From assembly GCF_016107325.1 (NCBI RefSeq), contig NZ_RCVT01000005.1, forward strand, positions 1 to 64,000: a DNA stretch of 64,000 bases. Direction: 5' to 3'. The notes below the pieces were generated by a model. The model ran no database searches. It was given only the letters and a program-made list of their open reading frames with translations, and had not been told where the DNA came from. Shown piece by piece: positions 12,216 to 44,254 of this stretch (its first letter is position 1; the number at the start of each line of letters is the position of its first letter). This stretch comes from Sphingomonas sp. MA1305. Its GTDB lineage: Bacteria; Pseudomonadota; Alphaproteobacteria; Sphingomonadales; Sphingomonadaceae. A program made the translations under genes and the position numbers.

Positions 12216-12935
12216 CGACCGTCGGCCCCGTCGGCCGACAAAAGCCGCGCCCAGATCACCACGTTCGTCATGGTTCGCGAGCCTAACCGCACCCCCTCTT
12301 TCCGCGCCACTTCTTTTTTTCCGGGAATATGTCTTATCGGAAGAAACGCTGTGCGCAGCACTCGGCAAGTGTCGGTTTTCCCAAAACAGTAGACAAGCGG
12401 CCTAGCGGCGGCCCGCCATCGAGCTGCACCTGAACGGGTGAACATCTTTCTTTTGAGGTCTTCGGCCGCGTAGTCGGTCAGCCGAGGCAGAGCACCTCGC
12501 GAACCGCGGATCTGGGGAGGTGAGTGCCACCGATGTTCGGAGGCGCAGCACCGCGAGAAGATCATCTGCCCGGCAGCTACGCCAGAGCGCACAGCCGTCA
12601 TGTTCTCAGAGCACGGCTGCTGGTATGAGGCTTCGTCCGATGAACGCGAGTTAGGAAAGAACGTGAGAGGTGACCCGATCGGTTAACCCGCTGTTCGCGG
12701 ACGAGATAATCGAGTGCGTCAGCGAGCCGCGCTCGCCTACGGTGCAGGAGTTGTCTCGGCTCGCCAAGCGGATGTGGGAGGAGAGCGGCGCAGAACGTTC
12801 AGCATTCGCGTGGGGTGACCTGTTACCCTCGAATCCCGAGGGGCTGTGCGCTCTGCGCGCTGCGGCCGTTGCAACGACCGGAACGGGTGACGAGTTGAGC
12901 CAAGCCTCAACCGCGAAGGAGCGCACCTCTAGTTC
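12216..12935. other. Long intergenic stretch with one weak small frame
   Basis: About 720 bases separate the integrase start from the RES/Xre promoter. The only frame with some coding character is 12670-12939 on the plus strand (GTG start, 89 residues, beginning MTRSVNPLFADEIIECVSE). It has no strong Shine-Dalgarno and no motif I recognise. I do not call it a gene. The rest shows nothing I can support. Confidence 0.4.
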
Positions 12936-14330: not shown

Positions 14331-14714
14331 TCACTTGGCCAAGCGCTCAATGATCGGGCAGTCCGGCCGGTTATCGCCGTGGCAAGCTTGGGCGAGGCCC
14401 GTAAGGGCGCGGCGCATCACTTCCAGCGCGCGCACCTTATGGCCAAGCTCGGCGGCGCGCGCTTCTGCCAATGCCTTCACTTCGGCGCTCGACCGATCGC
14501 GATCGGACCACAGCCCGAGCAGCGTGCGGATTTCCTCGACCGGAAACCCCAGGTCGCGCGCATTGGCGATGAACCGCAGCCGGTGAACATCGGCGTCGTC
14601 ATAGTCCCGATAGCTCCCGCGCCGAGGCGGCGCGGGCACCAGGCCGATCTTCTCATAATGGCGGATCATCCTTTGGGAGACGCCGCTGGCGTGCGATGCC
14701 GCCCCGATGTTCAC
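14331..14714 (-). CDS. cueR: MerR-family copper-responsive regulator, CueR-like
   Basis: A 127-residue MerR-family activator. The N-terminal winged helix begins [24 protein letters not shown], followed by the dimerisation helix. The C-terminal metal loop CHGDNRPDC has Cys111 and Cys119 separated by seven residues, the signature of CueR/HmrR sensors for Cu(I), Ag(I) and Au(I). The start is GTG and overlaps the stop of the copper ATPase gene by four bases (GTGA), so the two form one operon with the regulator downstream. A MerR-type palindrome lies before the ATPase gene, its likely target. Confidence 0.88.
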
Positions 14715-17362: not shown

Positions 17363-17386
17363 GGCGAGACTCCTTCGACCCGACAG

Positions 17387-17417
17387 CATGCAAGGTCTGA
17401 CACCGTGTCAGGGTCAA
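17387..17417 (-). promoter_or_regulatory. MerR-type operator/promoter of the copper ATPase operon
   Basis: On the minus strand TTGACC (17417-17412) is followed directly by the perfect palindrome CTGACACGGTGTCAG (17411-17397) and, with a 19-base spacer, TGCATG (17392-17387). A dyad inside an over-long spacer is the hallmark of MerR-family promoters; the poor -10 weakens the call. The operon encodes a CueR-like regulator, which fits. Confidence 0.6.
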
Positions 17418-17446: not shown

Positions 17447-17474
17447 TCTACGCGGCGTGTGAGCATTGCCCTCA
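17447..17474 (-). promoter_or_regulatory. ECF-type promoter element upstream of copper ATPase
   Basis: Minus strand TGAGGG (17474-17469), 16 bases, CGTAGA (17452-17447). It matches eight other elements in this cluster in both sequence and exact spacing. It lies about 85 bases before the ATPase start and upstream of the MerR-type site. Confidence 0.65.
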
Positions 17475-17570
17475 CATGCCGGCGGCTAGCCCGAAACCCT
17501 CGACGCCATGAGGACCGCGGCTTAGGTCTGTTCTTCACTCGCTAGCGCGGGCTGGGCAAAACGGGGACAT

Positions 17571-18884
17571 ATGGCAGCGCAGATCGACACCCTCTCTACA
17601 GGCGACGACCATGACGGGCTTGTCCGACGCCTGATTTCCCGCTGGCGGGACGATCCGAACGCGACCTATCGGAGCTGGTTTTTGTGGGACGAGCGGTTGA
17701 AGAACTTCCGCTCGATCCGGCGCGGGATCACCCAAGTTGTCGGCGAGATCGAGCGGGGCACGTTCGGCGTCGCTTATCGGGGATCATCGCTCGAAACCGT
17801 CGTCCACTCCGTCGCCGAACAGCGGCAAATCTTCAAAGGCGCGGATCATGCCTTTTTGTGGAAGCCCAAGCTCCGCATCCCCGACATTTACGAGAGCCCG
17901 GAGAACCAGCGCGCGTTCGGCCGGCTACTCGACGCCTGTTCGTGCTGCGATACGGCCGAGGAGATCATCGGCCACATCCACGCGATCGACCGCCTGAAGA
18001 TCAAGGGGCTCGGCCCCGCCGTCGCCAACCTGCTCTACTTCCTTCACCCGACGCTGGTGCCGCCCTTCAACACCGCGATCGTTAAGGGCTACAACGCGCT
18101 GACGGGCGCCAACGTCAAGCTGGGAAGCTGGGAACACTTCCTGGCGATGCGGACCGGCATCCTCGACCTCAATGACCGCTTCCGCGACCTGCTATCGAAT
18201 GACCTGGGCGCGATCGGCGGGCTGTTGTTCGACATCGGCTCCGATCGCTATCCGGCCCCGCCGCTCGACGGGAGCGGCGCGGCGCTGGCGACGTGGGGGC
18301 AGCGGCTTGAGGCGGCGCGCGAAGAGGCGCGCACGCTCAGCAAGACAGCGCAGCGCGAGGGCGAGAACGAGCGCACCCATACCGAGATCCAGGCGTGGCT
18401 CCGCGATCTAGGACTGGCGCTCGGCTATGACGTATGGATCGCGGCGAACGATCGCAGCCGGCCCTTCAACGGATCGGCCTTGGGAGCCGGATGCCTTGAG
18501 GGCCTGCCCGACACGATCGCGACCTCGAAAGGGGCGGACTCCATCCGCTTGATTGATGTGCTTTGGCTTGAGCGGGGCGGCGATCATGTCGCGGCCGCCT
18601 TCGAGGTAGAGCACTCGACCTCGATCTATTCGGGCATCGTCAGGATGCTCGACCTGGCGCTCAGCGGCAGCGACCTTCACGCGACCGCTGGCCTGTTCCT
18701 CGTTGCGCCCGATGCGCGCGAGGAGGACGTTCGTGCGCAGTTGCAGCGTCCCGCGTTCAGCCGCGTCGCGGCCCTCGACATTTCCTACTTGCCCTATGGC
18801 GAGTTGGAGAAGAACCGCGAGGCCATCGCCCGGTTCGGGTCGGGGCTGAAAGCGATCAAGGCGGTGTCCAGCAAGCTCGCCTGA
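17571..18884 (+). CDS. Predicted nuclease with HhH-like N-terminus and PD-(D/E)XK-like C-terminus
   Basis: A 437-residue protein unrelated to metals. Around residues 135-170, LKIKGLGPAVANLLYFLHPTL looks like a helix-hairpin-helix DNA-binding unit. The C-terminal part has IDVLWLERGGDHVAAAFEVEHSTSIYSG (about 315-345), where an Asp and the FEVEHS strand resemble the D...ExE core of PD-(D/E)XK restriction-type nucleases. It is transcribed away from the copper ATPase and has no partner methyltransferase nearby. A defence or DNA-processing role is inference. Mechanism and specificity cannot be read from sequence. Confidence 0.6.
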   Translation: MAAQIDTLSTGDDHDGLVRRLISRWRDDPNATYRSWFLWDERLKNFRSIRRGITQVVGEIERGTFGVAYRGSSLETVVHSVAEQRQIFKGADHAFLWKPKLRIPDIYESPENQRAFGRLLDACSCCDTAEEIIGHIHAIDRLKIKGLGPAVANLLYFLHPTLVPPFNTAIVKGYNALTGANVKLGSWEHFLAMRTGILDLNDRFRDLLSNDLGAIGGLLFDIGSDRYPAPPLDGSGAALATWGQRLEAAREEARTLSKTAQREGENERTHTEIQAWLRDLGLALGYDVWIAANDRSRPFNGSALGAGCLEGLPDTIATSKGADSIRLIDVLWLERGGDHVAAAFEVEHSTSIYSGIVRMLDLALSGSDLHATAGLFLVAPDAREEDVRAQLQRPAFSRVAALDISYLPYGELEKNREAIARFGSGLKAIKAVSSKLA

Positions 18885-18894
18885 ACCACTCTGG

Positions 18895-18922
18895 CAAGGG
18901 TTGGGAGCGGCGCGCGCGTATC
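18895..18922 (+). promoter_or_regulatory. ECF-type promoter element before lipoprotein relic
   Basis: CAAGGG (18895-18900), 16 bases, CGTATC (18917-18922), about 36 bases before the lipoprotein start. Same sequence and spacing as the other members of this set. Confidence 0.7.
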
Positions 18923-18957
18923 ACGGTTTAGAACTCCAGACACAGGAGGGCTCAGCG

Positions 18958-19220
18958 ATGAATCGACGTCGTTTTGTGCTTTCCGGGATTGTTGGGGCTG
19001 GCTTGCTCGTGAGCGGCTGCATCAGCCGCCAGGAGATGGCCTTACGGCACCGTTCGGCGTGCGAGAGCTACGGCTTCACCCCCGGCACCCAACCCTATTC
19101 CAATGCCTGCTGCAGCTCGACATGGGCGACTATGGCTATAGTCACCACGGCCGCCGCGGCCATTGGCCGCAAGGGCGTCCCACCGCCCTCTCCCCGCCCT
19201 TGGCGCCCAATCCGCAATAA
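18958..19220 (+). pseudogene. Small lipoprotein gene with an apparent one-base frameshift
   Basis: The start codon at 18958 follows AGGAGG and encodes a lipoprotein signal ending in the lipobox VSGC. The mature part begins like small alphaproteobacterial lipoproteins of the C-x-YGF-x-PGT pattern (CESYGFTPGTQPYSN). After YSN the frame turns into low-quality coding. Reading one base earlier gives CLLQLDMGDYGYSHHG and then a stop at 19218-19220, the expected continuation. The simplest explanation is loss of one base (an aat-tgc junction collapsed to aatgc) near 19104-19109. The uncorrected frame runs to 19278 with 106 residues. A sequencing error would look the same. Confidence 0.6.
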
Positions 19221-19268
19221 AAGCGGACGGCCGAGGCAGGCGCGCCGCGAAAAGCCGCGTCGCCGCGG

Positions 19269-19296
19269 CAAGGGCTAGGGGCGGCAGGCGCGTATC
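19269..19296 (+). promoter_or_regulatory. ECF-type promoter element before DUF4396 gene
   Basis: CAAGGG (19269-19274), 16 bases, CGTATC (19291-19296), 30 bases before the start codon at 19327. Its spacer is also very similar to that of the element at 18895-18922. Confidence 0.7.
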
Positions 19297-19326
19297 CTCT
19301 AGCAGTAGAGGAGAGCCGCCGCGACC

Positions 19327-20205
19327 ATGCCTTCCCCGGTTCCCTGGCTCGATCCGCTGCTGATCGTGTGGTTCGGTCTGACCGCACTGTCCGTCGCCTA
19401 CGTCGCGTGGGATGCGTTCACCCGCAACCCCGAGTTGAAGGTGATGAAATGGGGCTGGCTGCTGGTGACGCTCTATGGCGGCCCGGTGATGGCGGCGGCC
19501 TATGTCCTATCGTGCCAGGAGCCTGCGAACGAGCGGCACGAGGACTTTGTTCGGCCGCTTTGGAAGCAGGCGTTCGGCTCCTCGATCCATTGCATGGCCG
19601 GCGACGCCACCGGCGTCATCGTGGCGGCGGCGATCACGACGGCGCTCGGCTTGCCGATGTGGCAGGACGCGATCGCCGAGTATGTGTTCGGCTTCGCGTT
19701 TGGGCTGCTGATCTTCCAGGCGCTGTTCATGCGCGACATGGCGGGGGGTTCTTACTGGGGGGCGCTGCGCATGTCCTTCATCCCCGAATGGCTGTCGATG
19801 AATTCCGTCATGGCCGGGATGATCCCGACAATGGTGGTGTTGATGAGCCGGGACATGGCGGCGATGCACGCCAGCTCGCTCCGCTTTTGGGGCGTCATGT
19901 CGCTCGCGACGCTCGTCGGCTTCGCTGTCGCCTACCCGGTCAACCTATGGCTTGTCGGTGTTCGCTCGAAGCACGGCATGGGCACGGTGCGCGCGCTCGG
20001 GCATGGCGGGCACGACATGGCGGCCGAAAAGGCCGGCGCCGCCCCCATGACTGGGATGGGACATGGGACGATGGCCGGCATGGCAGGTATGGCCGAAGGT
20101 CCAAGCGTAACGCCGGCGCAGATCGTCGCGATGGCCGTGCTGACGCTGCTCGCGCTTGGCGCCGGGATCATCGTGGCGACGATCGGAGGCCGCTGGACGA
20201 TGTGA
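19327..20205 (+). CDS. DUF4396 multi-pass membrane protein
   Basis: A 292-residue inner-membrane protein with about six hydrophobic segments (near residues 10-28, 40-60, 90-112, 115-135, 165-180, 185-205 and a last one at 270-290). It contains the conserved HCMAGDATG segment and the metal-ligand-rich EWLSMNSVMAGM stretch of DUF4396 proteins. A Met/His/Gly-rich loop (about 225-260, HGMGTVRALGHGGHDM then MGHGTMAGMAGM) precedes the last membrane span and could bind copper. Biochemical function of the family is not established. Its place in a copper cluster behind an ECF-type promoter supports a role in copper handling. Confidence 0.85.
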   Translation: MPSPVPWLDPLLIVWFGLTALSVAYVAWDAFTRNPELKVMKWGWLLVTLYGGPVMAAAYVLSCQEPANERHEDFVRPLWKQAFGSSIHCMAGDATGVIVAAAITTALGLPMWQDAIAEYVFGFAFGLLIFQALFMRDMAGGSYWGALRMSFIPEWLSMNSVMAGMIPTMVVLMSRDMAAMHASSLRFWGVMSLATLVGFAVAYPVNLWLVGVRSKHGMGTVRALGHGGHDMAAEKAGAAPMTGMGHGTMAGMAGMAEGPSVTPAQIVAMAVLTLLALGAGIIVATIGGRWTM

Positions 20206-20228
20206 CGACGCTCTTCCGGTGCGCTCGA

Positions 20229-20256
20229 CAAGGGATCGGGCGCCGCGCCGCGTATC
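20229..20256 (+). promoter_or_regulatory. ECF-type promoter element before Csp-like gene
   Basis: CAAGGG (20229-20234), 16 bases, CGTATC (20251-20256), 33 bases before the start at 20290. Confidence 0.7.
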
Positions 20257-20289
20257 TCCAAATGGGCGGGGCCAACGGAAGGAAGAACG

Positions 20290-20625
20290 ATGCACCATCA
20301 GATGAGCGCCGAGATGCAGGAGTGCATGGACGCCTGCCACCAATGCCATGTGACCTGCCTGTCGATGGCCGTGAACCATTGCTTGGAAGCAGGCGGCCGC
20401 CATGCCGAGCCGCAGCACATCAAGATGATGCTCGATTGCGCGCAGATATGCTCGGTCGCCTTAGACTTCATGGCCCGCGGCTCCGAGCATCACCGTCATA
20501 TCTGCCGCGAGTGCGCCGAGATCTGCCGTGCGTGCGCGCAGAGCTGCCAGGGGCTCGACGGCATGGAGGATTGTGTCCAAGCCTGCCTGCGTTGCGCCGA
20601 GGCATGCGAGAATATGGCGGCCTGA
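20290..20625 (+). CDS. csp: Four-helix-bundle copper storage protein, Csp-like
   Basis: A 111-residue protein packed with Cys in helical Cys-x-x-x-Cys spacing: MQECMDACHQCHVTC, HCLEAG, MLDCAQIC, ICRECAEICRACAQSC and DCVQACLRCAEAC. This is the four-helix-bundle copper-binding family (Csp), in which many Cu(I) ions bind along the inside of the bundle. There is no signal peptide, so it should be cytosolic, like Csp3. It has its own ECF-type promoter and a good ribosome site (GGAAGGAA). Storage or buffering of Cu(I) in the cytosol is the family role. Confidence 0.92.
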   Translation: MHHQMSAEMQECMDACHQCHVTCLSMAVNHCLEAGGRHAEPQHIKMMLDCAQICSVALDFMARGSEHHRHICRECAEICRACAQSCQGLDGMEDCVQACLRCAEACENMAA

Positions 20626-20675
20626 CCACCCGCTCGCGCGGGCGGTTAGCCGCCCGCGCATCGGGCGCTAGGTTG

Positions 20676-20945
20676 CTAGTGTCCCATCCGCGCGATCACG
20701 TCGAACAGCTCGCCAGTAAACTTCGTCAACAGCTCGATCGCGGCGCTCCCGAACACGACCAGGCACACGCTCAGGGCGATGAGCTTGGGGACGAAACTCA
20801 GCGTCTGTTCGCTGATCGAGGTGGCGGCCTGAATGATGCTGATAATCAGCCCGACGATCATCATCGGCACGAGCAGCACCACGCAGATCAGGCCGACCAC
20901 GACCAGCATCCTGCCCGTCTCATCGAGAAGGACGGATTGATCCAT
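20676..20945 (-). CDS. fliQ: Orphan FliQ-family export apparatus protein
   Basis: An 89-residue protein with two hydrophobic helices (about residues 13-36 and 52-76) and the family pattern DQSVLLDETGRMLVVVG, then IISIIQAATSISEQTLSFVPKL. It matches FliQ/SctS, the small core subunit of flagellar and type III export gates. No other flagellar or type III gene is nearby; it lies behind copD on the same strand, 53 bases from it. A frame extension to 21116 would run deep into copD, so ATG 20945 is used. Whether it works with a chromosomal flagellar system or has been recruited elsewhere cannot be seen. Confidence 0.8.
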   Translation of the reverse strand: MDQSVLLDETGRMLVVVGLICVVLLVPMMIVGLIISIIQAATSISEQTLSFVPKLIALSVCLVVFGSAAIELLTKFTGELFDVIARMGH

Positions 20946-20997
20946 CAGGCGCAAGCGCCTGTCGGGCCGGGGAACGCGAGGGCTCCCCGGACGCGCA

Positions 20998-21924
20998 TCA
21001 CATCGCCGACGCAGGCGGGGCGAGCGTGCCCAGCCAGGCAACGAGCCCGAGGATCGCAACGACGCAGGCCGTCTCGATTGCGAGGCTTGTCCGCAGCGCG
21101 CCGAGTGCGCGCCCATGATCCGAGGCGGCGATCGACTGCTCGAATGCCGGCGTCAGCCGGAACCGGTTGAGCGAGGCGAGACCCAGCATGGCGACGAACA
21201 GCGCCAGCTTGGCAAGCAGGAGCTGACCATAGAGCGTCGCCGCGAGCGCGGCGACGTTGCCGATCCCGACCAGCATCCACCCGTTGACCAGGCCGGTGAC
21301 AACGATCGTGCCGACCACGACCGTTCCGACCGTCCCGAACCCATGCAGCGCGCGGTGCGTCAGCCCGAGGTGCGTCGCATCGACGCGTGCGGCAGGCCGG
21401 GAGACGAGAAGGATCAATCCGAGCAGCGCGCCGACCCAGGCACCCGAGGCGATCAGGTGGAGAATATCGGCGGCAAGATGGACCCAGCCCATCGCGGCTT
21501 CGTCCATTGCCCCGTGCCCCGTCCATGCCAGCGTCCCGAGCGCGACGGCCGAGCACAGCGCAACGATGCCCAGCCAGGCGCACCGACCAGCGGCGAGCAT
21601 GGCGGCCAGCGTCGCCAGGGCGAGCATGACCATTCGGAGCTTCCAGGCCGCGCCGATCGCGGACCCCGTGAGCAGCGCGCCGACCGCTTCATGGTCGACC
21701 GGCCAAGCCGGCGTCCCCGCCATCGAGGAGGCCATCAGCACGACCGAGGCGGCCGAGAAGATGAGGCCGAGCGCCGCGCTGGCGATGAGCCACGGGCGCA
21801 AGGCGAGCGCGTCGCCGCGCTCGCCTGCCCGCAGCCCATAGAGACTGAATGCGGAGAGGCCGAACAGCGCCGCCAGCGTCAGGTAGAGCGCGAAGCGGAC
21901 GCCGATCAGCGACCAGTCTCCCAT
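20998..21924 (-). CDS. copD: Copper resistance inner-membrane protein CopD
   Basis: A 308-residue protein with about eight hydrophobic segments and the conserved features of CopD: WTGHGAM and WVHLAADILHLIASGAWVGALLG (about residues 130-170), where His residues could bind copper. CopD takes copper across the inner membrane together with the periplasmic CopC. It begins four bases after the copC stop, so they form an operon, with the orphan fliQ downstream. Confidence 0.9.
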   Translation of the reverse strand: MGDWSLIGVRFALYLTLAALFGLSAFSLYGLRAGERGDALALRPWLIASAALGLIFSAASVVLMASSMAGTPAWPVDHEAVGALLTGSAIGAAWKLRMVMLALATLAAMLAAGRCAWLGIVALCSAVALGTLAWTGHGAMDEAAMGWVHLAADILHLIASGAWVGALLGLILLVSRPAARVDATHLGLTHRALHGFGTVGTVVVGTIVVTGLVNGWMLVGIGNVAALAATLYGQLLLAKLALFVAMLGLASLNRFRLTPAFEQSIAASDHGRALGALRTSLAIETACVVAILGLVAWLGTLAPPASAM

Positions 21925-21928
21925 CGGC

Positions 21929-22297
21929 TCACTTCACCGCGAAGGCGTAGTTTCCAGCGACCTTGTGGGTGTCCGTCGAGACGACATGCCAGGCGACATT
22001 ATAGCGCCCAGGATGGAGCGGCGCCTTAGGCGTCACGATGAGGGTTTTGCCATCGGCGGCAACCGCCGCGGTGCTGGCGATCTTCATCTCCGGCATGCCG
22101 GGCATGGCGGCCATGATCAGATCAGCCTTGGAGAAGGCAGCCACGAGCTTCTCGCTGAAACGCAGCTCGAGGCGAGTGGGCTTGGCAACCGTCGCGTTGG
22201 CGGCCGGGCTGGCGGAGACCAGCTTGGGGTGGGCATAGGCCGTGCCGGCGAACGCGAGGGCGGCAGCAGCAGCAGTCAAAACGGATACGCGACGCAT
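21929..22297 (-). CDS. copC: Periplasmic copper-binding protein CopC
   Basis: A 122-residue exported protein with a signal peptide ending AYA-HP, so the mature chain begins with the conserved His1. The cupredoxin-like fold follows (HPKLVSASPAANATV, LRFSEKL, WHVVSTDTHKVAGNYAF). His1, the Asp of STDTH and its His are the Cu(II) ligands of CopC. A Met-rich loop, MAAMPGMPEM (about 62-71), could bind Cu(I). It is the first gene of copC-copD-fliQ and has an ECF-type promoter that is divergent from the sigma operon. Confidence 0.93.
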   Translation of the reverse strand: MRRVSVLTAAAAALAFAGTAYAHPKLVSASPAANATVAKPTRLELRFSEKLVAAFSKADLIMAAMPGMPEMKIASTAAVAADGKTLIVTPKAPLHPGRYNVAWHVVSTDTHKVAGNYAFAVK

Positions 22298-22333
22298 AGG
22301 GGGTGCCTTTCGAGAGGAGGGTTCCTGTCCTTC

Positions 22334-22361
22334 ATTACGCGCCCCGTTCGACCACCCCTCA
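22334..22361 (-). promoter_or_regulatory. ECF-type promoter element before copC
   Basis: Minus strand TGAGGG (22361-22356), 16 bases, CGTAAT (22339-22334), 37 bases before the copC start. It is back-to-back with the element at 22373-22400. Confidence 0.72.
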
Positions 22362-22372
22362 AAGACATTTGG

Positions 22373-22400
22373 TGAGGGATGAGAGCTGCGCTTGCGTAAT
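22373..22400 (+). promoter_or_regulatory. ECF-type promoter element before the sigma factor operon
   Basis: TGAGGG (22373-22378), 16 bases, CGTAAT (22395-22400), 19 bases before the first gene. It implies positive autoregulation of the sigma operon and divergent transcription with copC from a 120-base intergenic region. Confidence 0.72.
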
Positions 22401-22418
22401 CCATGCTAAGGGGACGGA

Positions 22419-22703
22419 GTGAACGACATGGACGACCTCGACGCAGTATTGACGAGGCTGGCGCGGGCACCGGTGCCCGCGAGCCTCGACGGAATCGAAG
22501 CCAGGGTGCTCGCGCGCATTGCTGCGCGCCCAGCGGCCCGCGCCGGCATGGGTCTAGGAGCCATGACGATCGCGGTGGCGCTCGGCATGGGCATTCTTGG
22601 CGCAGGCGTGCCGGCAAAGGAGGCCAGCGCGGCATCGACGCTGTCTCCGCTCGGGCCAGTATCGCCCCTCGCACCCTCGACCTTGCTCGTCGGCGCGCCA
22701 TGA
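22419..22703 (+). CDS. Small membrane anti-sigma-like protein (CnrY-type position)
   Basis: A 94-residue protein with a short helical cytoplasmic N-terminus (MDDLDAVLTRLARAPVPASLDGIEARVLARI) and one membrane span (about 44-64). Sequence similarity to a named family is not obvious. The role is inferred from layout: it is followed, with ATGA overlaps, by a periplasmic metal-sensor gene and an ECF sigma gene, exactly the order Y-X-H of the cnr nickel/cobalt system, where Y is the anti-sigma factor. Ala/Pro/Ser-rich C-terminal residues would be periplasmic. Confidence 0.65.
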   Translation: MNDMDDLDAVLTRLARAPVPASLDGIEARVLARIAARPAARAGMGLGAMTIAVALGMGILGAGVPAKEASAASTLSPLGPVSPLAPSTLLVGAP

Positions 22704-23140
22704 GCGGCCGCACCCGCTTGGCGCTCTGCGTCATCGCGTGCTTCATTGCCGCGATCGGCGGCGTGTTCGTCGGGCGGGCGCTTCTCCCGGCCAAGGCGCA
22801 GCCTGGGGCGGAATTGCATGACGTGCTGCATCACAAGCTGGCGTTGGACGCCAACCAGCAGGCTCGCCTTGAGGTGTTGGAACAGCGGTTTGCGGTGCAG
22901 CGCCGCGCCTTCGAGCTTGAGCTGAGGGCCGATAATGCGCGGCTGGCGGAGGCGATCGAAGCCGAGCACGGCAACGGCCCCCGCGTCGCCGCGGCGGTCG
23001 ATCGCAGCCACGCCGTCATGGGCGAGCTACAGAAGGCGACGCTCGCGCACATATTCGCCATGCGACAGCTTCTCCGGCCCAATCAGACCGGGCAGTTCGA
23101 CCAGGCGGTGGTGAAGGCGCTCACCGACGACGCGCGGTGA
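22700..23140 (+). CDS. Periplasmic heavy-metal sensor, CnrX/CzcE-like
   Basis: A 146-residue protein with an N-terminal membrane anchor (about residues 6-27) and a helical periplasmic domain containing LHDVLHHKLALDANQQARLEVLEQRF, the heavy-metal-resistance (CnrX/ZraP-like) fold. The HDVLHHKL cluster could hold metal. In CnrX the periplasmic metal sensor controls release of the sigma factor from the CnrY-type anchor. ATG 22700 overlaps the stop of the previous gene by four bases; the frame is open further upstream but that region is the anti-sigma gene. Confidence 0.8.
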   Translation: MSGRTRLALCVIACFIAAIGGVFVGRALLPAKAQPGAELHDVLHHKLALDANQQARLEVLEQRFAVQRRAFELELRADNARLAEAIEAEHGNGPRVAAAVDRSHAVMGELQKATLAHIFAMRQLLRPNQTGQFDQAVVKALTDDAR

Positions 23141-23706
23141 GTTTCGATTGGACGGCGCTTTCCGAGGGCGAGCTTGCGACGCTCAGCATCGCGGGCCGGG
23201 AGGCTGCCTTCGCTGAGATCATGCGCCGCCATCGCCAATCCGTCTTCCGGATGGTGCGGGCTTGCGTCGGCGAAGCCGACGAGGCGCTGGACCTGCTGCA
23301 AGAGACGTTCGTCGCAGCTCATCAAGCCATGCCTCGCTACGACGGCCAGCGTTCGATGCGGGCATGGCTAGCTACGATCGCGATCAACAAGTGTCGCGAT
23401 TGGGGCCGTAAACGAACGGTTCGCCGCTTCCTGTCGTTCGCGACCCCGATCGGTCCCGAGGCGGAGGCGGTGGCTGACGACCAGGTAGGAGCCGATGAGG
23501 CGACCGGCGATCGGCAAGAGCTGGACCGCGTGACACGGGCCATCGCCGGCCTTCCTGCCACGTTGAAGGAGCCCTTGGTGTTGCGAACCATCGAAGGGCT
23601 GAGTCAGGCCGAGACCGCGGCCGTTCTATCGATTAGCGAAAAGGCGGTGGAAACGCGCCTCTACCGTGCCCGCGCAAAACTGTTGGAGCAATTGGGCGGA
23701 CGCTGA
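23137..23706 (+). CDS. ECF-family RNA polymerase sigma factor
   Basis: A 189-residue sigma-70 family ECF factor. Region 2 (about residues 25-95) has the DLLQETFVAAHQAM helix and RAWLATIAINKCRDWGRK; region 4 (about 130-185) has LPATLKEPLVLRTIEGLSQAETAAVLSISEKAVETRLYRARAKL. It starts at GTG 23137, overlapping the sensor stop (GTGA). It is the last gene of an anti-sigma/sensor/sigma operon. Nine nearby copies of an element with -35 AAGGG or GAGGG and -10 CGTA, always 16 bases apart, are its likely targets, including its own operon and the copA operon whose -35 begins inside this gene. Confidence 0.92.
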   Translation: MSFDWTALSEGELATLSIAGREAAFAEIMRRHRQSVFRMVRACVGEADEALDLLQETFVAAHQAMPRYDGQRSMRAWLATIAINKCRDWGRKRTVRRFLSFATPIGPEAEAVADDQVGADEATGDRQELDRVTRAIAGLPATLKEPLVLRTIEGLSQAETAAVLSISEKAVETRLYRARAKLLEQLGGR

Positions 23707-23731
23707 GGGCTAGCCGGTCGCGCCGCGTATC
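23704..23731 (+). promoter_or_regulatory. ECF-type promoter element before copA (multicopper oxidase)
   Basis: TGAGGG (23704-23709), 16 bases, CGTATC (23726-23731). The first three bases are the stop codon of the sigma factor gene. It should drive the five-gene copAB operon starting at 23774. Confidence 0.72.
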
Positions 23732-23773
23732 AAGGCTAGAGGGACACTCCCGTTCGAGAGCCTTGAGGACTGT

Positions 23774-25855
23774 ATGAGCCGCACTATCGACCGCCGCCAG
23801 ATGCTACGCGGGGCCGCCCTGGCGGGCGGCGGGCTGGCGCTGTCAGCTTACATGCCCGCATGGGCGCAGCCCGTCTCGGGCGGCATCGTCAAGCCGCTCC
23901 CGACTGTTTCGGGAACCGACATCGCGTTGACGATCGACAGCTTCCGGCTTCCCGTCGATGGCAAATCAACGCCGGCGATCGGCGTCAACGGCACGGTTCC
24001 GGCTCCGCTCATTCGCTTGAAGGAGGGGCAGAAGGTCCGCCTGTCCGTCACCAACAACCTCGACGAGGACAGCTCGATCCACTGGCACGGGTTGCTCGTG
24101 CCCTTCCCCATGGACGGCGTGCCCGGGATCAGCTTCCCCGGCATCAAGGCGCGATCGACCTTCGTTTACGAGTTCCTGATCGTGCAGTCGGGCACCTATT
24201 GGTATCACAGCCATTCGGGCGAGCAGGAGCAGGAAGGGCTCTACGGGCCGATCGTGATCGATCCGGCAGGCGCCGACCCGATCGCGTTCGACCGAGAGCA
24301 TGTGATCGTGCTGTCCGATCATAGCCAGATGACCGGCGAGCAGATTTTCCGCAAATTGAAGCAGATGGGCGGCGCCTATTTCAATTATCAGCGGCCGACC
24401 CTAGCGGGCTTGCTCGCGGGCCGCGAAATGCCCCTGAAAGATCGCATCAAGTGGGGCAAGATGCGGATGGACCCCGCCGACATCGCCGACGTCACCGGAT
24501 CGACCTACACCTTCTTGGTGAACGGCTACGGGCCGTATGACAACTGGACGGGGCTGTTCAAAGCGGGCGAGCGGGTCCGCTTGCGGATCATCAACGCCGC
24601 AGCCCAGACCAATTTCAACGTCCGCATCCCCGACCTGCCGATGACCGTCGTGCAGGCGGACGGGCAGAATGTGCGCCCGGTCAAGGTGGACGAGTTCCAG
24701 ATCGGCGTCGCCGAGACCTTCGACGTCATCGTGACGCCCGAGGACCGGGCCTATAGCTTCGTTTCCGAAGCGATCGACCGTTCGGGCATGGGGCGTGCGA
24801 CGCTCGCACCGCGTGAAGGCATGATCGCGCCGGTGCCGCCGCTCCGCCCGCGCACGCTGCTGACCATGACCGACATGGGAATGGACATGAGCAGCATGGG
24901 CGGGATGCAGGGCATGTCCGGCATGGAGGGCATGTCCGGCATGAAGGATAAGGGTCCGGTCGCAAAGCGCGGGCTCGATCCGACTGTCATGCAGAACGCC
25001 TCGCGCAACTTGTGGAAGCTGACCGGCTGGAAGGGGCCGACCGACCACGGAACCGTGGCGGTGGGCGCTGCAATGGCGGGGATGTCCGGCATGGACCATA
25101 GCCAGATGGGCGGCGCTGCCATGCCGGGGATGGATCACAGCCAGATGGCGGCGGGCGGTGCCGGCATGGCCGGCATGGATCACGGCCAGATGAGCGGCGG
25201 CAGCATGGCCGGGATGGACCATGGCGCGATGCAAAGCGGGTCCGGCCAGGCTGGCGGCATGGCCGGGATGGACCACGGCTCAGGTAGCGGCATGAGCATG
25301 AACATGCGCGACCCGAAAAATGCGCCGCAGGTGAAGATGGGGCCCGGCGTTCAGACTATCTCCCCCTCCCCCACGGATCGCAGCGGCGACCCGCCCCAAG
25401 GGCTGGAGGACGTCGACCATCGCGTCCTCACCTACCGCGACCTCGTTGCGCTCCAGCCCAATCCCGACGTGCGCGCGCCGTCACGTCAGTTCGAGATCCA
25501 CCTGACGGGCAACATGGAACGCTACATGTGGGGCTTCGACGGGCAGAAGCTCAGCGACCCGGCCGACCCGATCCCGTTTCGCAACGGAGAGCGGGCGCGG
25601 ATCACGTTGGTGAACGACACGATGATGCCGCACCCAATCCACCTCCACGGCCACTTCTTCGAGCTGGTGACGGGCCACGGCGACCATGCGCCGCGCAAGC
25701 ACACGGTCAACGTGCCGCCCGGAGGCAAGATGACCTTCGACTTGACCGCCGATGCGCCGGGCGATTGGGCGTTCCACTGCCATAACCTCTACCACATGAC
25801 CGCGGGCATGATGCGTGTCGTGACGGTTCGACCGCTTGAAGGAGCGGCGGCATGA
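23774..25855 (+). CDS. copA: Copper resistance multicopper oxidase CopA, Met-rich
   Basis: A 693-residue periplasmic multicopper oxidase. A Tat signal (SRTIDRRQMLRGAAL) precedes three cupredoxin domains. Copper ligands are visible in SIHWHGLLVP and YWYHSHSG in domain 1 and HPIHLHGHFFE plus WAFHCHNLYHMTAGM at the C-terminus. Between about 370 and 520 lies a Met/His-rich insert with repeated GMDHSQM and GMSGM units that should bind copper. CopA oxidises Cu(I) and sequesters copper in the periplasm. It heads the operon copA-copB-cytochrome c-PepSY-DUF305 and overlaps copB by four bases. Confidence 0.95.
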   Translation: MSRTIDRRQMLRGAALAGGGLALSAYMPAWAQPVSGGIVKPLPTVSGTDIALTIDSFRLPVDGKSTPAIGVNGTVPAPLIRLKEGQKVRLSVTNNLDEDSSIHWHGLLVPFPMDGVPGISFPGIKARSTFVYEFLIVQSGTYWYHSHSGEQEQEGLYGPIVIDPAGADPIAFDREHVIVLSDHSQMTGEQIFRKLKQMGGAYFNYQRPTLAGLLAGREMPLKDRIKWGKMRMDPADIADVTGSTYTFLVNGYGPYDNWTGLFKAGERVRLRIINAAAQTNFNVRIPDLPMTVVQADGQNVRPVKVDEFQIGVAETFDVIVTPEDRAYSFVSEAIDRSGMGRATLAPREGMIAPVPPLRPRTLLTMTDMGMDMSSMGGMQGMSGMEGMSGMKDKGPVAKRGLDPTVMQNASRNLWKLTGWKGPTDHGTVAVGAAMAGMSGMDHSQMGGAAMPGMDHSQMAAGGAGMAGMDHGQMSGGSMAGMDHGAMQSGSGQAGGMAGMDHGSGSGMSMNMRDPKNAPQVKMGPGVQTISPSPTDRSGDPPQGLEDVDHRVLTYRDLVALQPNPDVRAPSRQFEIHLTGNMERYMWGFDGQKLSDPADPIPFRNGERARITLVNDTMMPHPIHLHGHFFELVTGHGDHAPRKHTVNVPPGGKMTFDLTADAPGDWAFHCHNLYHMTAGMMRVVTVRPLEGAAA

Positions 25856-27114
25856 ACCGGCTGATCCCGGCGCTTGCCGCCACGACCATGCTCGGCATGG
25901 CCGCTCCCGTCGCCGCTCAGTCGATGCAGGGCATGAACATGCCGGGCATGACGATGCCGATGCCGGCCAAGAAGAAGTCGGCAGCAAAGCCCGCGACGAA
26001 GGGTAAACCGACGAAGGCCCGGCCAGCGGCCGCGAAGCGGAAAGCGGCTCCGGCCAAGCGGAACGCCGCCCCGATGGCCGGTATGAAGGGTATGGATCAC
26101 GGGACCATGCCGGGCATGGATCATTCGACCATGCCCGGGATGGACCAGGCCGCCCCGCAGGGCGGCCAGCACGACATGCAGTCCATGCCGGGGATGCAGA
26201 TGCCCGGAGGCAGCCAAACGCCCGCGCAGGGCGCTCAGCAGCCGATGCAGGGCATGGATCATTCAGCGATGCCGGGCATGAACATGCCGGCCGGCCAGGG
26301 CAGCGGCCACGACATGCAGGGAATGACCGGCATGGCGATGGAGGGCGTGCAGCAGACCGGCACCGCGCTTGCCGCAGGGAACGCCCCCGCCCCGCCCCTT
26401 CCGACCGACCATGCGGCCGATAACGTCTATGGCGCAGACGCGATGGCGATGGGCCGCCACCACCTTCAGCAGCATCACGGCGGCCAGAACTTCAATCAGG
26501 TGCTGTTGAACCTTGCCGAGTATCAATTCCGCAACGGCCGCGACGGCTATCGGTGGGATGGCGAGGCATGGTTCGGGGGGGACATCAATCGCCTGTTCGT
26601 CAAGAGCGAGGGCGAGGGAGCGTTCCGCAAGGGCGTCGAGAGCGCCGAGGTGCAGGCGCTCTATAGCCGGCCGATCGGCCCCTATTTCAACCTCCAGGCA
26701 GGCGTCCGTCAGGACTTAGGACCGTCCCCGAAGCGCACCTATGCGACGGTCGGGTTCGAGGGGCTGGCGCCAGGCTTCTTCGAGTTGGAGGGCGCGCTCT
26801 TTCTGTCGAACAAGGGCGACGTGCTTGGGCGACTGGAGGGCTATTACGATCAACGCATCACCCAGCGGCTGGTCCTGCAACCGCGCGCCGAACTCAATTT
26901 CGCAGCCCAGGACGTGCCGGAAAACCGGATCGGGTCGGGCCTGTCCAATGCCGAGCTGGGGCTACGGTTGCGCTACGAGGTGAGGCGCGAGTTCGCCCCC
27001 TACATCGGTGTGTCATGGGATCGCCGGTTCGGCGACACCGCGCGCTTCGCTCGGGCAGATGGTGACAAGGCCACGTCCCGCAGCATCGTCGCCGGCGTCC
27101 GCATGTGGTTCTGA
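25852..27114 (+). CDS. copB: Outer-membrane copper resistance protein CopB
   Basis: A 420-residue exported protein. After a signal peptide ending AAPVAAQ come Met-rich repeats (MQGMNMPGMTMPMP, a Lys/Ala-rich linker, then several GMDHSTMPGMD units) up to about residue 165. The rest (about 200-420) is a beta-barrel, the CopB family domain, starting near HHGGQNFNQVLLNLAEYQ and ending in the outer-membrane signature RSIVAGVRMWF with a terminal Phe. It should sit in the outer membrane and bind or pass copper. ATGA overlap with copA. Confidence 0.93.
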   Translation: MNRLIPALAATTMLGMAAPVAAQSMQGMNMPGMTMPMPAKKKSAAKPATKGKPTKARPAAAKRKAAPAKRNAAPMAGMKGMDHGTMPGMDHSTMPGMDQAAPQGGQHDMQSMPGMQMPGGSQTPAQGAQQPMQGMDHSAMPGMNMPAGQGSGHDMQGMTGMAMEGVQQTGTALAAGNAPAPPLPTDHAADNVYGADAMAMGRHHLQQHHGGQNFNQVLLNLAEYQFRNGRDGYRWDGEAWFGGDINRLFVKSEGEGAFRKGVESAEVQALYSRPIGPYFNLQAGVRQDLGPSPKRTYATVGFEGLAPGFFELEGALFLSNKGDVLGRLEGYYDQRITQRLVLQPRAELNFAAQDVPENRIGSGLSNAELGLRLRYEVRREFAPYIGVSWDRRFGDTARFARADGDKATSRSIVAGVRMWF

Positions 27115-27181
27115 GCCGCCTACCGCAGCCTCGCCGCGCCGCCCACGCATCCAACAAGCCGGCTTTCTGAGGGAGGACGCA

Positions 27182-27766
27182 ATGGAAAGAGCCAGATCGG
27201 GAACGCTGAAACGGCACCTGCCGAGCTTGCCCTTCGTAGCCTTGCTGGCGGCGGTCGTCGCCGTGGGCGCAGCCGCGTTCATCTATCTTGGCGTTTATAA
27301 CATCGCGGCCGACGAGCCGCACACGCTAGCGGTCTATTCGATGCTCGAACGCCTGCGCGATCGGTCGATCGAGGCGCACGCGCGCGGCATCACGCCTCCC
27401 GCCGATCTTGCGTCGGCGCAGCGCGTCTCGGTCGGGGCCGGACTCTACGGCGAAATGTGCTCAGGGTGCCATCTCGGCCCTGGCGTCGAGAAATCCGAGA
27501 TGAGTCAGGGCCTCTACCCGCAGGCGCCGGAACTCGCACGCGCCCAGGACCTCACGCCCGCACAGCAATTCTGGATCATCAAGCACGGCGTGAAGCTCAG
27601 CGCAATGCCCGCATGGGGCAAAACGCATCCCGACCCCCTGATTTGGGACATGGTCGCGTTCGTGCGCAAGCTCCCGGGCATGACGCCGGAGCAGTATAAG
27701 GCGCTGGTCGCGAGCGCGCCGGCCGATCACGACGAGATGATGAAGGACATGCCGGGCATGAAGTGA
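27182..27766 (+). CDS. Membrane-anchored c-type cytochrome
   Basis: A 194-residue protein with an N-terminal membrane anchor (about residues 16-40) and one cytochrome c domain with CSGCH haem attachment (about 98-102). A distal ligand Met is likely in LSAMPAWGKTH. The C-terminus is Met-rich (MMKDMPGMK), hinting at copper contact. The ATG at 27182 follows GAGGGAGG and lies 67 bases after copB. It is third in the copper operon. Electron transfer to or from the multicopper oxidase is a plausible inference. Confidence 0.88.
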   Translation: MERARSGTLKRHLPSLPFVALLAAVVAVGAAAFIYLGVYNIAADEPHTLAVYSMLERLRDRSIEAHARGITPPADLASAQRVSVGAGLYGEMCSGCHLGPGVEKSEMSQGLYPQAPELARAQDLTPAQQFWIIKHGVKLSAMPAWGKTHPDPLIWDMVAFVRKLPGMTPEQYKALVASAPADHDEMMKDMPGMK

Positions 27767-28551
27767 TGCCCGTGGGCGGGAATGATGGAGGGCCGGTTCT
27801 GAAAAGCGCAAAACTGCGATTGCACCTTCTCGCGAGCCGCACGCACAAGTGGCTTGCGATCATTATCGGCGCGCAGCTCCTCCTATGGTTTACCAGCGGC
27901 GCCTTGATGAGCTTCTTGCCCATCGACCGCGTGCATGGCGACCACCTGATAAATCGGAAAGCAACCGCGGCCCTGCCGAGTGGCGTCCCGCTCGCACCGG
28001 CGTCGGCGATTGTCGCTACAACGGCCGCTCCGATCGAGGCCGTGACCTACCGCATGTGGCTTGGCCGCCCGGTCGCGGAAGTGACGACGGCCAAAGGCAC
28101 GCGCCTGTTCGACGCCAGAACGGGCGCGGCGCTACCCACGCCGACCGCGGCCACAGCGGAGGCCGTCGCGCGTGAAGCTTGGCGCGGCAGCGGGCGACCA
28201 GCGGCCACAGTGGAGCGGATCGAGCGCCCCAGCCCCGAGTATCGCGGCACGCTTCCCGCTTGGCGCGTGACGTTCGCCGACCCCGATTCCACCCGCGTGT
28301 TCGTGGCGGCAGACACCGGCCGGATCGCGGCGGTGAGAACGGGGACGTGGCGGCTCTACGACTTCTTCTGGGGCCTCCACATCATGGATTGGCAGAACCA
28401 CGAGAACTTCAACACGCCCTGGCTGCTCGCCTTCGCGATCGGTGGGCTCGCTCTTTGGCTGGGCGGTGCGGTTCTTCTCTACATACGCTGGCCCAAACGG
28501 CGGCGTCGCAGTGCCGCGGAGCGAGGCACATTTCAGCAGGAGAGCGCATGA
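27766..28551 (+). CDS. PepSY-domain membrane protein
   Basis: A 261-residue protein with two membrane spans (about residues 25-45 and 220-243) around a periplasmic region holding PepSY-like domains, including AWRVTFADPDSTRVFVAADTGRI. The N-terminal RTHKWLAIIIGAQLLLWFTSGALMS is typical of PepSY-TM proteins, some of which act in metal or electron transport. ATG 27766 overlaps the cytochrome stop by one base (TGATG); a GTG one codon earlier is equally possible. Its place suggests a redox partner of the cytochrome. Confidence 0.85.
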   Translation: MPVGGNDGGPVLKSAKLRLHLLASRTHKWLAIIIGAQLLLWFTSGALMSFLPIDRVHGDHLINRKATAALPSGVPLAPASAIVATTAAPIEAVTYRMWLGRPVAEVTTAKGTRLFDARTGAALPTPTAATAEAVAREAWRGSGRPAATVERIERPSPEYRGTLPAWRVTFADPDSTRVFVAADTGRIAAVRTGTWRLYDFFWGLHIMDWQNHENFNTPWLLAFAIGGLALWLGGAVLLYIRWPKRRRRSAAERGTFQQESA

Positions 28552-29141
28552 TGGAAGATCACAAAGGCAAGATGAACATGGGAATGGGTTACGGCCGTTT
28601 CGCCGCAATGATCGCGACATCGACCGCGGTCATGTTCGGGCTGATGTACGTGAACGTCTATGCGCTAGGGCATATCGAGTTCAGCCAGACGCGCTTTTGG
28701 ATGGCGTTCGTCATGGGTGCGGCGATGGCTGTCATCATGCTCGGCTTCATGTGGTCGATGTACAAGAACAAGACCGTGAACGCGGCTATTCTAGGCGGCA
28801 GCGTCGTCGTGTTCGCCCTCGCGCTCTGGCTTGTCCGCAGCCAGGAGACGGTGAGCGACGTGTCCTACATGAAGGCGATGATCCCGCACCACTCGATCGC
28901 GATCCTCACCAGCGAGCGCGCCCACATCAAAAATCCCGAGGTTCGCAAGCTGGCCGATGGCATCATTGATGCTCAGGTCCGCGAGATCACCGAAATGAAG
29001 CGTCTGATCGCGCAGCTTGAAGCTCACCCAATGCCAGACGGTGCGCCCGACTTGCCCTCCTATCGCGATAAGGGCGTTGCCCCGCCTCCGCCCGAGACGG
29101 ATGAGAGCGCTGGCATCAACACGCTTCAACCAATCCGCTAA
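28548..29141 (+). CDS. DUF305 membrane protein
   Basis: A 197-residue protein with three N-terminal membrane spans (about residues 17-37, 45-66, 75-95) and a C-terminal DUF305 domain with the conserved MKAMIPHHSIAILTSERA and AQVREITEMKRLI segments. DUF305 domains bind metals through Met and His residues, and several are found with copper genes. The start overlaps the previous stop by four bases. It ends the copAB operon. Confidence 0.87.
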   Translation: MMEDHKGKMNMGMGYGRFAAMIATSTAVMFGLMYVNVYALGHIEFSQTRFWMAFVMGAAMAVIMLGFMWSMYKNKTVNAAILGGSVVVFALALWLVRSQETVSDVSYMKAMIPHHSIAILTSERAHIKNPEVRKLADGIIDAQVREITEMKRLIAQLEAHPMPDGAPDLPSYRDKGVAPPPPETDESAGINTLQPIR

Positions 29142-29176
29142 GGGGGGACCGTAGCGCCTTTGCACCCCCAAGCTTT

Positions 29177-29195
29177 GGCCGCCAGCAGGGCGGCC
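29177..29195. repeat. Perfect 7-bp hairpin downstream of the copAB operon
   Basis: GGCCGCC and GGCGGCC are separated by five bases. It lies 36 bases after the last stop codon of the copAB operon and between that gene and the minus-strand ECF-type promoter. It may end transcription from either side, though it lacks a T-run. Confidence 0.4.
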
Positions 29196-29258
29196 ACGAG
29201 CGGATGGCGCTGGATAACAGGAGGGGGCACGCGGCGAAAGCGGAGTAGCAGGGTGTAA

Positions 29259-29286
29259 GATACGCGGTGCGGAAGCACATCCCTCA
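29259..29286 (-). promoter_or_regulatory. ECF-type promoter element facing a gene-free stretch
   Basis: Minus strand TGAGGG (29286-29281), 16 bases, CGTATC (29264-29259). It matches the copper-cluster promoters exactly but points toward the 3' end of the copAB operon, where I find no minus-strand gene. It is divergent from the element at 29338-29365. Possible product: an antisense or small RNA. Confidence 0.55.
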
Positions 29287-29337
29287 GAAATAAAGTGCCG
29301 TTTCTCGCCACTATCTCGCGCGTTCTAACGACTCGCC

Positions 29338-29365
29338 TGAGGGGTCGACGCCCCGCACGCGTAGA
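29338..29365 (+). promoter_or_regulatory. ECF-type promoter element before exported DUF305 gene
   Basis: TGAGGG (29338-29343), 16 bases, CGTAGA (29360-29365), 27 bases before the start codon at 29393. Confidence 0.65.
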
Positions 29366-29392: not shown

Positions 29393-29785
29393 ATGCGCTT
29401 CGCACCGACGTTAGCAGCTTTGGCACTTATCGCCACGCCCGCGCTCGCGCAGCAGGGCGGCGGTATGCAGGGCATGGATCACGGCTCCATGCAGGGCATG
29501 AACCACGACGACATGTCCAGGATGATGGCCGGCAATCCTTACGGCCAGGCCGAGATGGACATGCATCAGAAGATGATGGCCGCAAAACAGGGCGACGCGG
29601 CTGAGATGTGGACCCGCAAGATGATCGAGCACCATCGCGGCGCCATCGCCATGTCGCGCGTCGCGGTTCGGGAAGCGAGCGACGCCGAGACGAAGCGCAT
29701 GGCGCAGATGACCATCACGAAGCAGGAAAAGGATATTGCCGAGCTACAGGCGTGGCTTCGCAAGCACGGCAAGCGCCCGCAGTAA
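29393..29785 (+). CDS. Exported DUF305 copper-binding protein
   Basis: A 130-residue protein with a signal peptide cleaved near ALAQQG and a mature part starting with a Met/His-rich region (MQGMDHGSMQGMNHDDMSRMM). A single DUF305 domain follows (KMIEHHRGAIAMSRVA, MTITKQEKDIAELQAWL). It resembles periplasmic CopM-like copper-binding proteins. A good ribosome site (AAGGAG) precedes the ATG. It has its own ECF-type promoter and opens a second run of copper genes in the same direction. Confidence 0.88.
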   Translation: MRFAPTLAALALIATPALAQQGGGMQGMDHGSMQGMNHDDMSRMMAGNPYGQAEMDMHQKMMAAKQGDAAEMWTRKMIEHHRGAIAMSRVAVREASDAETKRMAQMTITKQEKDIAELQAWLRKHGKRPQ

Positions 29786-41800: not shown

Positions 41801-41801
41801 G

Positions 41802-43121: not shown

Positions 43122-43149
43122 ACTTGAAATTACGGGAGCCATCGCTTTC

Positions 43150-43166
43150 GTCAGCTGTTCGTCAGG
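43150..43166 (+). promoter_or_regulatory. Response-regulator direct repeat before VIT gene
   Basis: GTCAGC (43150-43155), five bases, GTCAGG (43161-43166), matching the repeats before the PepSY and rubrerythrin genes with one base difference. It is 129 bases upstream of the VIT start. Confidence 0.55.
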
Positions 43167-43294
43167 CCCGTGCCGCAACGCACCTGGCGTAGCTACATCG
43201 CTCCATCATCCCTGCACTGCTGTCCGGAGCCAAATACAATCCAATTCCCGCCCACTCGGCGGCTCACCGAGTTCGACATACTTTAGGATAGCCA

Positions 43295-44224: not shown

Positions 44225-44254
44225 CCGCCAGAAAAACGACCGGTTTTCTGGCGG
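44225..44254. repeat. 30-bp inverted repeat, res-like site of resolvase
   Basis: CCGCCAGAAAA (44225-44235) and TTTTCTGGCGG (44244-44254) are perfect inverted copies around 8 bases. A third copy, TTTTCTGGCGG, lies at 44340-44350, eight bases before the resolvase start. Spacing and location fit subsites of a resolvase recombination region. Confidence 0.65.

Follow-up and report, generated by a model that had tools for sequence, protein, structure and literature searches.

The question raised by this locus is what controls a group of copper genes that share one two-box element. The locus lies in a 64,000-bp stretch of Sphingomonas sp. MA1305 (contig NZ_RCVT01000005.1, positions 1 to 64,000, assembly GCF_016107325.1; this whole stretch is called the window below), and it contains an operon of three genes, here named Y, X and H, of which H (23137-23706) encodes an extracytoplasmic function (ECF) sigma factor. 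We consider it very probable that the nine copies of the element are promoters of this sigma factor, which would work in a Y-X-H system and be freed by metal, most likely copper.

Through a search with YRAGGG-N16-CGTAD, 9 matches were found in the 64-kb window and no further one, so that the nine elements reported by an earlier sequence-only reading were all recovered with none elsewhere; 100 dinucleotide shuffles gave 0.17 matches on average and 3 at most. The fixed 16-base spacer of that reading also held: among spacer lengths of 8-24, length 16 gave 9 matches, lengths 10 and 17 one each, and all other lengths none. Alignment of the nine elements revealed a G directly before CGTA in 9/9, and the core is therefore RAGGG-N15-GCGTA. 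The element has 27 bases; all nine places had been given rightly, except that each span ran one base past the -10 end. We also trained a weight matrix on 138 sites, all from other genomes; in the window it scored the nine elements 18.1-27.9, the next best score and the maximum in the reversed window both being 9.2. As the matrix finds these nine alone above 9.2, the list of nine is complete by that matrix. The putative promoter sites are as follows.

17448..17474, minus strand: TGAGGG-N15-GCGTAG, upstream of the P1B-type ATPase gene; matrix score 18.1
18895..18921, plus strand: CAAGGG-N15-GCGTAT, upstream of a lipoprotein-like open reading frame (ORF) of 105 amino acids; 19.8
19269..19295, plus strand: CAAGGG-N15-GCGTAT, upstream of the DUF4396 gene; 21.5
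20229..20255, plus strand: CAAGGG-N15-GCGTAT, upstream of the cysteine-rich DUF326 protein gene; 25.3
22335..22361, minus strand: TGAGGG-N15-GCGTAA, upstream of copC-copD; 27.9
22373..22399, plus strand: TGAGGG-N15-GCGTAA, upstream of the Y-X-H operon (putative autoregulation); 24.5
23704..23730, plus strand: TGAGGG-N15-GCGTAT, upstream of copA-copB; 26.9
29260..29286, minus strand: TGAGGG-N15-GCGTAT, antisense to the upstream DUF305 gene; 23.3
29338..29364, plus strand: TGAGGG-N15-GCGTAG, upstream of a DUF305 gene; 23.6

The sites at 22335..22361 and 22373..22399 stand back to back with a gap of 11 bp, and the first three bases of the site at 23704..23730 double as the stop codon of the sigma gene. 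The reading frames of Y, X and H overlap one another in an operon of 22419-23706.

22419..22703, plus strand: Y, a presumed membrane anti-sigma factor of 94 amino acids, recognised from position and predicted helices
22700..23140, plus strand: X, a CnrX-like periplasmic metal sensor of 146 amino acids with the Pfam domain Metal_resist
23137..23706, plus strand: H, an ECF sigma factor of 189 amino acids, nearest solved structure CnrH

By the homology of X and H, this operon is a CnrYXH-type system. Among 25 PDB matches of the sigma factor, CnrH was the best (3.6e-29) and SigW the next (1e-13). X matched CnrX in sequence at 2.6e-20. When its AlphaFold model (predicted local distance difference test, pLDDT, 84.7) was compared with solved structures, the first eight rows were CnrX entries with Z of 13.0-13.5 over 106-110 residues and the others reached at most 10.6, in a tool with which helical bundles generally score high. 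The ligands of CnrX, which we take to be H42, H46, E63 and H119 besides M123, correspond to His40, His44, Glu61, His117 and Met121 of the window X, and each of the five is present in 41/41 loci of the collection described below. M123 is taken from PMC7689651, in which it is required for nickel and cobalt signalling by CnrX. The window X contains in addition His104 and Met107, at CnrX positions 106 and 109.

The model of Y shows a pair of helices at the N-terminus, followed by a helix at 45-63 that we read as the membrane helix, and CnrY is described as two helices wrapping around CnrH (PMC7406223). We considered Y as a sequence homologue of CnrY and obtained no support for this: there was no sequence match, and Foldseek with the weak Y model (pLDDT 67) found no chain. 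As Y has the right place, length and helix pattern and no CnrY sequence match, its probable role as the anti-sigma factor rests on position and layout. A glutamate in the recognition helix of region 4.2 was also considered as the cause of RAGGG recognition, but L230, L233, L235, L236 and L237, five further sigma factors of this genome, likewise have Glu there, and the idea was abandoned.

To what extent the element belongs to this operon can be seen in related loci. We collected 40 loci of at most 20 kb each (770,707 bases) around relatives of the sigma factor with 51-95% identity, 39 from other genomes and one from a second cluster in the own genome on contig C8. In these loci the loose pattern matched 174 times at spacer 16 and 0-8 times at every other spacing of 9-23; both comparisons proposed by the sequence-only reading, with shuffled sequence and with other spacings, thus came out in favour of the element. 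Single changes in either box left 0-5 matches at the proper spacing with two exceptions: a non-G base before CGTA still yielded 16 matches, some of them real variants, and RGGGG yielded 81 at a spacing shorter by one base, where sites reading RAGGGG are matched in a shifted register. GGAAC combined with CGTA gave 0-4 matches per spacing of 9-23 and only 1 at spacer 16, which bears out the earlier remark that the -35 box is unlike the GGAAC-type ECF box. Among 150 distinct sites retrieved from 41 loci (the window counted) with the G before CGTA fixed, 147 had C or T directly before GCGTA, a position left free in the pattern, and 101 had T as the second base after RAGGG.

The gene order Y-X-H was found in 41/41 loci, and the matrix, working on sequence alone, placed a site upstream of Y in 35 and a site at the 3' end of the sigma gene in 35. 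The element starts exactly at the sigma stop codon (TGA or TAA, then GGG) in 18 of the 41 loci, and in nine further loci it lies 8 or 24 bases deeper inside the sigma gene. Another set of 80 named loci includes some of the same contigs, so that the two sets are not independent; it gave 394 matches at spacer 16 against 0-15 at other spacings, with a site just before Y in 61/78 and at the sigma end in 72/78, and most loci without a near-Y site have one about 1.0-1.2 kb before X. A fixed gap between back-to-back sites was examined as a further constant and given up: the gap is 8-11 bp in 17/41 loci (the window and L046-L061), and the other 24 have 1-79 bp or no pair.

The great majority of the tight sites in the 41 loci (161/170) lie at most 300 nt upstream of Y or of a listed copper-associated ORF group, the groups being BLAST clusters named from window members or by eye. 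The targets were CopA (37), Y (36), CopC (36), DUF305 (23), P1B ATPase (8), FAD enzyme (4), cytochrome c (3) and DUF411 (2), and DUF4396 or cysteine-rich proteins counted together (12), the last cluster including an alternative-frame ORF. Nine of the 170 tight sites fell outside the listed groups, two of them in the window (18895 and 29260 on the minus strand).

Sixty genomes of the same genus were then divided into 36 that contain a close relative of the sigma factor (best E < 1e-40) and 24 that do not (best E > 1e-20). The tight pattern occurred on average 7.64 times (2-20) in the former and 2.21 times (0-6) in the latter (Mann-Whitney p = 5e-8), and the reversed control was flat (5.86 and 6.00). 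Motif copies therefore follow the sigma factor. The claim of a self-regulated ECF regulon over copper genes is supported by this tracking together with the constant gene order and the sites near Y and at the sigma end.

In the own genome (4,038,741 bases), we found 15 matches of the tight pattern, nine in the window (contig C6), six on contig C8 and none elsewhere, and the reversed pattern gave 4. The C8 sites at 41030-46951 lie beside a second sigma gene (C8:46358-46918), 82% identical to that of the window. This C8 stretch (L046) contains relatives of the P1B ATPase, the restriction-enzyme-like protein, the DUF4396 and cysteine-rich proteins, CopC, CopD, CopA, CopB and both DUF305 proteins with 67-94% identity; PepSY, DUF411 and CusA were looked for in its 20 kb and not found, and it has no room for the 105-amino-acid ORF that follows window site 18895. 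The matrix adds one C8 variant site with ACGTA for GCGTA (L046:2210, minus strand), before a gene (L046 1232-2167, minus strand) called FAD-oxidoreductase-like from its resemblance to an annotated one; its coding sequence extends over two frames and is possibly disrupted in this cluster. A nine-member regulon was thus correct for the window and an undercount for the genome, to which the second cluster adds six sites and one variant.

The same boxes are found above published transcription starts. On plasmid pMOL28 of Cupriavidus metallidurans, starts are listed at 53286, 23 bp ahead of cnrY, and at 54660, 24 bp ahead of cnrC (PMC9045368). The promoters cnrYp and cnrCp are tied there to earlier primer-extension starts and are CnrH-controlled under nickel; an RpoD-dependent promoter before cnrY is also described, and the printed table leaves the class of each start unreadable (PMC9045368). 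In both cases the final A of CGTA precedes the start by 9 nt, and the elements above the two starts read AAGGG-N17-CGTA and GAGGG-N17-CGTA. This arrangement recurs in Cupriavidus USMAA2-4 and genome G751, the spacer being 17 in 6/6 sites including those of pMOL28. RAGGG is therefore a box of the CnrH group and not a new or orphan type of -35 box, and by analogy with cnrY and cnrC, transcription in the window would start about 9 nt after CGTA.

The element could instead be a two-part binding site of a conventional activator of the two-component or MerR type, as copper genes elsewhere are often under such regulators, and cueR genes adjoin the P-type ATPases of some relatives. The two boxes, however, are unlike each other and so no repeats of one sequence, their spacing is fixed, most sites face the downstream gene, copies track the sigma gene across genomes, and the same boxes stand above the cnr starts, so we regard an activator site as very improbable and read the elements as sigma promoters. 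The genes concerned in the window are listed below.

14711..17389, minus strand: P1B-type heavy-metal ATPase with YHS and HMBD domains
18961..19278, plus strand: lipoprotein-like ORF of 105 amino acids, with no Pfam or NCBIfam match at E 0.01
19327..20205, plus strand: DUF4396 membrane protein
20290..20625, plus strand: cysteine-rich DUF326 protein, relatives annotated as four-helix bundle copper-binding protein
20998..21924, minus strand: CopD
21929..22297, minus strand: CopC
23774..25855, plus strand: CopA multicopper oxidase, TIGR01480 above cut-off
25852..27114, plus strand: CopB
27008..29141, plus strand: cytochrome c-like, PepSY_TM and DUF305 genes, downstream on the same strand
29393..29785, plus strand: DUF305 protein, weak CopM match (61.6 bits, cut-off 90)

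The sites with their fixed spacing, their ties to the sigma factor and copper genes, and the homology of X to CnrX and of H to CnrH are established at the level of sequence. On this basis we propose that at rest the small membrane protein Y would keep the sigma factor at the membrane. Binding of metal, most likely copper, by periplasmic X would change the shape of the complex and free the sigma factor, which with RNA polymerase would start transcription at tRAGGG-N15-YGCGTA sites before the Y-X-H operon itself, copAB, copCD, and the genes of the P1B ATPase, DUF4396 protein, cysteine-rich protein and DUF305 protein.

Several findings weigh against this proposal. Eight elements had been said to precede a copper gene or the sigma operon, and only seven of nine do: the site at 18895 leads to the uncharacterised 105-amino-acid ORF, and 29260 on the minus strand leads to no clear gene, so 2/9 sites are without a recognised copper gene. 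Each of the two expected operon sites is absent from 6/41 loci, and in the 80-locus set the near-Y site is missing in 17/78 and the sigma-end site in 6/78. Genomes without the sigma factor still carry 0-6 matches. In a wider set, scanned for RAGGG-N14-19-CGTA between 1.3 kb upstream and 1.5 kb downstream of the X start, a Caulobacter plasmid copy (L203) and one L211 copy had no such site, and L204, L213, L214 and L222 had only one each. No sequence similarity of Y to CnrY was detected (hhalign probability 2.4), and the Y model is weak, as given above. Finally, all five ligands of a nickel/cobalt sensor are retained in X, and metals besides copper could therefore act as inducers.

The site at 29260 on the minus strand was considered as the promoter of a hidden gene; a conserved ORF was looked for and none was found, and this was rejected. 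In L048, L087 and L088 the site is antisense to a gene as well. It is kept as part of a divergent pair (51 bp gap) in these three loci although the neighbouring gene differs, L048 and L088 being identical there.

The metal signal itself can be judged from the linked genes and the sensor. Loci were labelled nickel/cobalt-type where cnrCBA was present and CopA absent (pMOL28, USMAA2-4, G751 and the alphaproteobacterial L209). L199 and L223 were labelled copper-linked for CopA and CopB and also carry a CnrA-like pump gene (48% and 58% identity); L201 and L202, without CopA, were left unlabelled. L203 has a partial CopA match only, with cueR, a P-type ATPase and DUF305 alongside. We asked whether the spacer length encodes the metal, 16 standing for copper and 17 for nickel/cobalt, and discarded the idea: copper-linked L225 has 17 at both sites, L212 and L214 have 17 before Y, and nickel-type L209 has GGGGG-N16-CGTA at both places.

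The regulon might also be real and X answer nickel, cobalt or several metals, copper genes being only part of the need. Besides the pump genes of L199 and L223, the shared ligands speak for this: in the 60 distinct X proteins of copper-linked loci (36 taken from the 41-locus set and 24 from the wider one), H46, E63 and H119 are present in 60/60, H42 in 58 and M123, the residue needed for nickel/cobalt signalling by CnrX (PMC7689651), in 59. Against it stand the copper gene context in the window, the presence of CopA in 75/80 named loci, a separate nickel-type copy with CnrCBA in one alphaproteobacterium (L209), and positions 106 and 109, which split the two labelled groups without exception. 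We therefore hold a wider or different metal signal to be unlikely and retain copper as the probable one. Since the targets are copper genes and no cnrCBA pump is among them, the system is a copper-linked relative and not the Cnr nickel system.

His106 and Met109 were found in 60/60 copper-linked X, and Glu106 and Ala109 in all four nickel/cobalt-linked sensors and also in NccX; the 60 do not count five identical rows, one duplicate locus and two unlabelled rows, and the duplicate and the unlabelled rows likewise have His106 and Met109. Glu76 is present in 55/60 copper-linked X and Arg in two, and Arg76 in the four nickel/cobalt-linked; positions 49, 55 and 131 are likewise fixed differences between the groups. 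All four nickel/cobalt sensors fall into a single clade (support 100/100, root unknown), so the contrast at 106/109 counts as one split in evolution rather than as a correlation seen several times. The 80-locus set was retrieved with peptide patterns containing Met109 and His92, and its counts of 56/56 Met109 and 55/56 His92 are therefore not evidence. In an antiparallel hairpin with 63 opposite 119, position 76 would sit opposite 106 (by arithmetic, no measured contact). Tentatively, the copper-linked sensors may have a second, lower metal site of Glu76, His106 and Met109 on the CnrX hairpin, repeating Glu63/His119/Met123 about 13 residues on and replacing Arg76/Glu106/Ala109, by which the fold might have been retuned between copper and nickel/cobalt; we consider this possible but rather doubtful. 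Phe is found at the position of CnrX Tyr135 in 59/60 copper-linked sensors, and a CnrX Y135F mutant is in the PDB (4wwb).

The closest named relatives of the sigma factor and sensor belong to Sphingomonas and kin. Copper-linked Y-X-H loci were found in sphingomonads, on one Caulobacter plasmid and one Asticcacaulis plasmid, and in three further alphaproteobacterial families. CnrX-like proteins (E <=1e-6) occurred in 5/385 genomes of the class and 17/398 of the phylum, two overlapping sets that both include the own genome, and 73 plasmid records contained a CnrX-like gene, six of them from Cupriavidus.

Other genes of the window were also recorded. A 437-amino-acid type II restriction-enzyme-like protein (17571-18884, plus strand; PADLOC REase_II 9.3e-13) lies inside the copper regulon and is also found in the C8 cluster, in 23/80 named loci and beside the sigma gene on the Caulobacter plasmid. 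A FliQ-like Bac_export_3 protein (20676-20945, minus strand) adjoins copCD and the cysteine-rich protein gene, with the same place on the FARSPH plasmid. A two-gene prokaryotic Argonaute (pAgo) system composed of a class I short pAgo (1e-211) and a SIR2-type partner (6.5e-214) was predicted by PADLOC models at 5002-8321 (minus strand). It is adjoined by a reverse transcriptase (RT) fused to a trypsin-like protease (8485-10065, minus strand; PADLOC RT-Protease type XI 6e-175, with Pfam support), which also adjoins an integrase (11217-12368), forming a small defence island. A TraG_N protein at 187-2991 (plus strand) suggests that contig C6 (218,703 bases) is a conjugative plasmid or element.

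If the proposal is true, it describes a branch of alphaproteobacterial copper control, often plasmid-borne, that a 27-base pattern can predict at a background of roughly two matches per genome. It also poses a question of metal selectivity, with two sensor groups of one fold and the same known ligands differing at 106 and 109. In titles and abstract openings of openly licensed papers, we found no CnrYXH-type system running copper resistance, in a scope that does not extend to the main classification of ECF factors or the first paper on cnr regulation.

Among known systems, NrsF is a different anti-sigma type. SigF-NrsF of Caulobacter crescentus is likewise an alphaproteobacterial ECF system and is copper-induced (PMC8224329), but the SigF regulon is described as uncharacterised cytoplasmic, membrane and periplasmic proteins, and an X-type sensor is not named in the available part of that paper (PMC8224329). 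CorE of Myxococcus xanthus, a copper-dependent ECF sigma factor named as such in a 2023 copper-signalling paper, is similarly tied to copper genes (PMC10141476). Unlike the CorE type, which has a cysteine-rich C-terminal extension with CxC, the window sigma factor ends just after region 4 (130-182) and has two cysteines and no CxC. The nickel/cobalt/cadmium system NccYXH is closer, NccX (4clv) being the second match of the X profile (1.1e-46), but NccX has Glu and Ala at the His106/Met109 positions by alignment.

The nearest system is CnrYXH of pMOL28. Both have overlapping Y-X-H genes, the CnrX fold with five ligands, a sigma factor for which CnrH is the nearest solved one, a promoter upstream of Y and another directly behind H, and RAGGG and CGTA boxes. 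They differ in that nine dispersed copper-gene sites are found here and two sites serving a resistance-nodulation-division (RND) nickel/cobalt pump (cnrCBA) there; the spacer is 16 in the window and 17 at the cnr sites; the window X has His106 and Met109 in CnrX numbering where CnrX has Glu and Ala; and Y is without sequence similarity to CnrY. By every sequence test applied, the window contains a real and compact ECF regulon, which is a variant of the Cnr system linked to copper.

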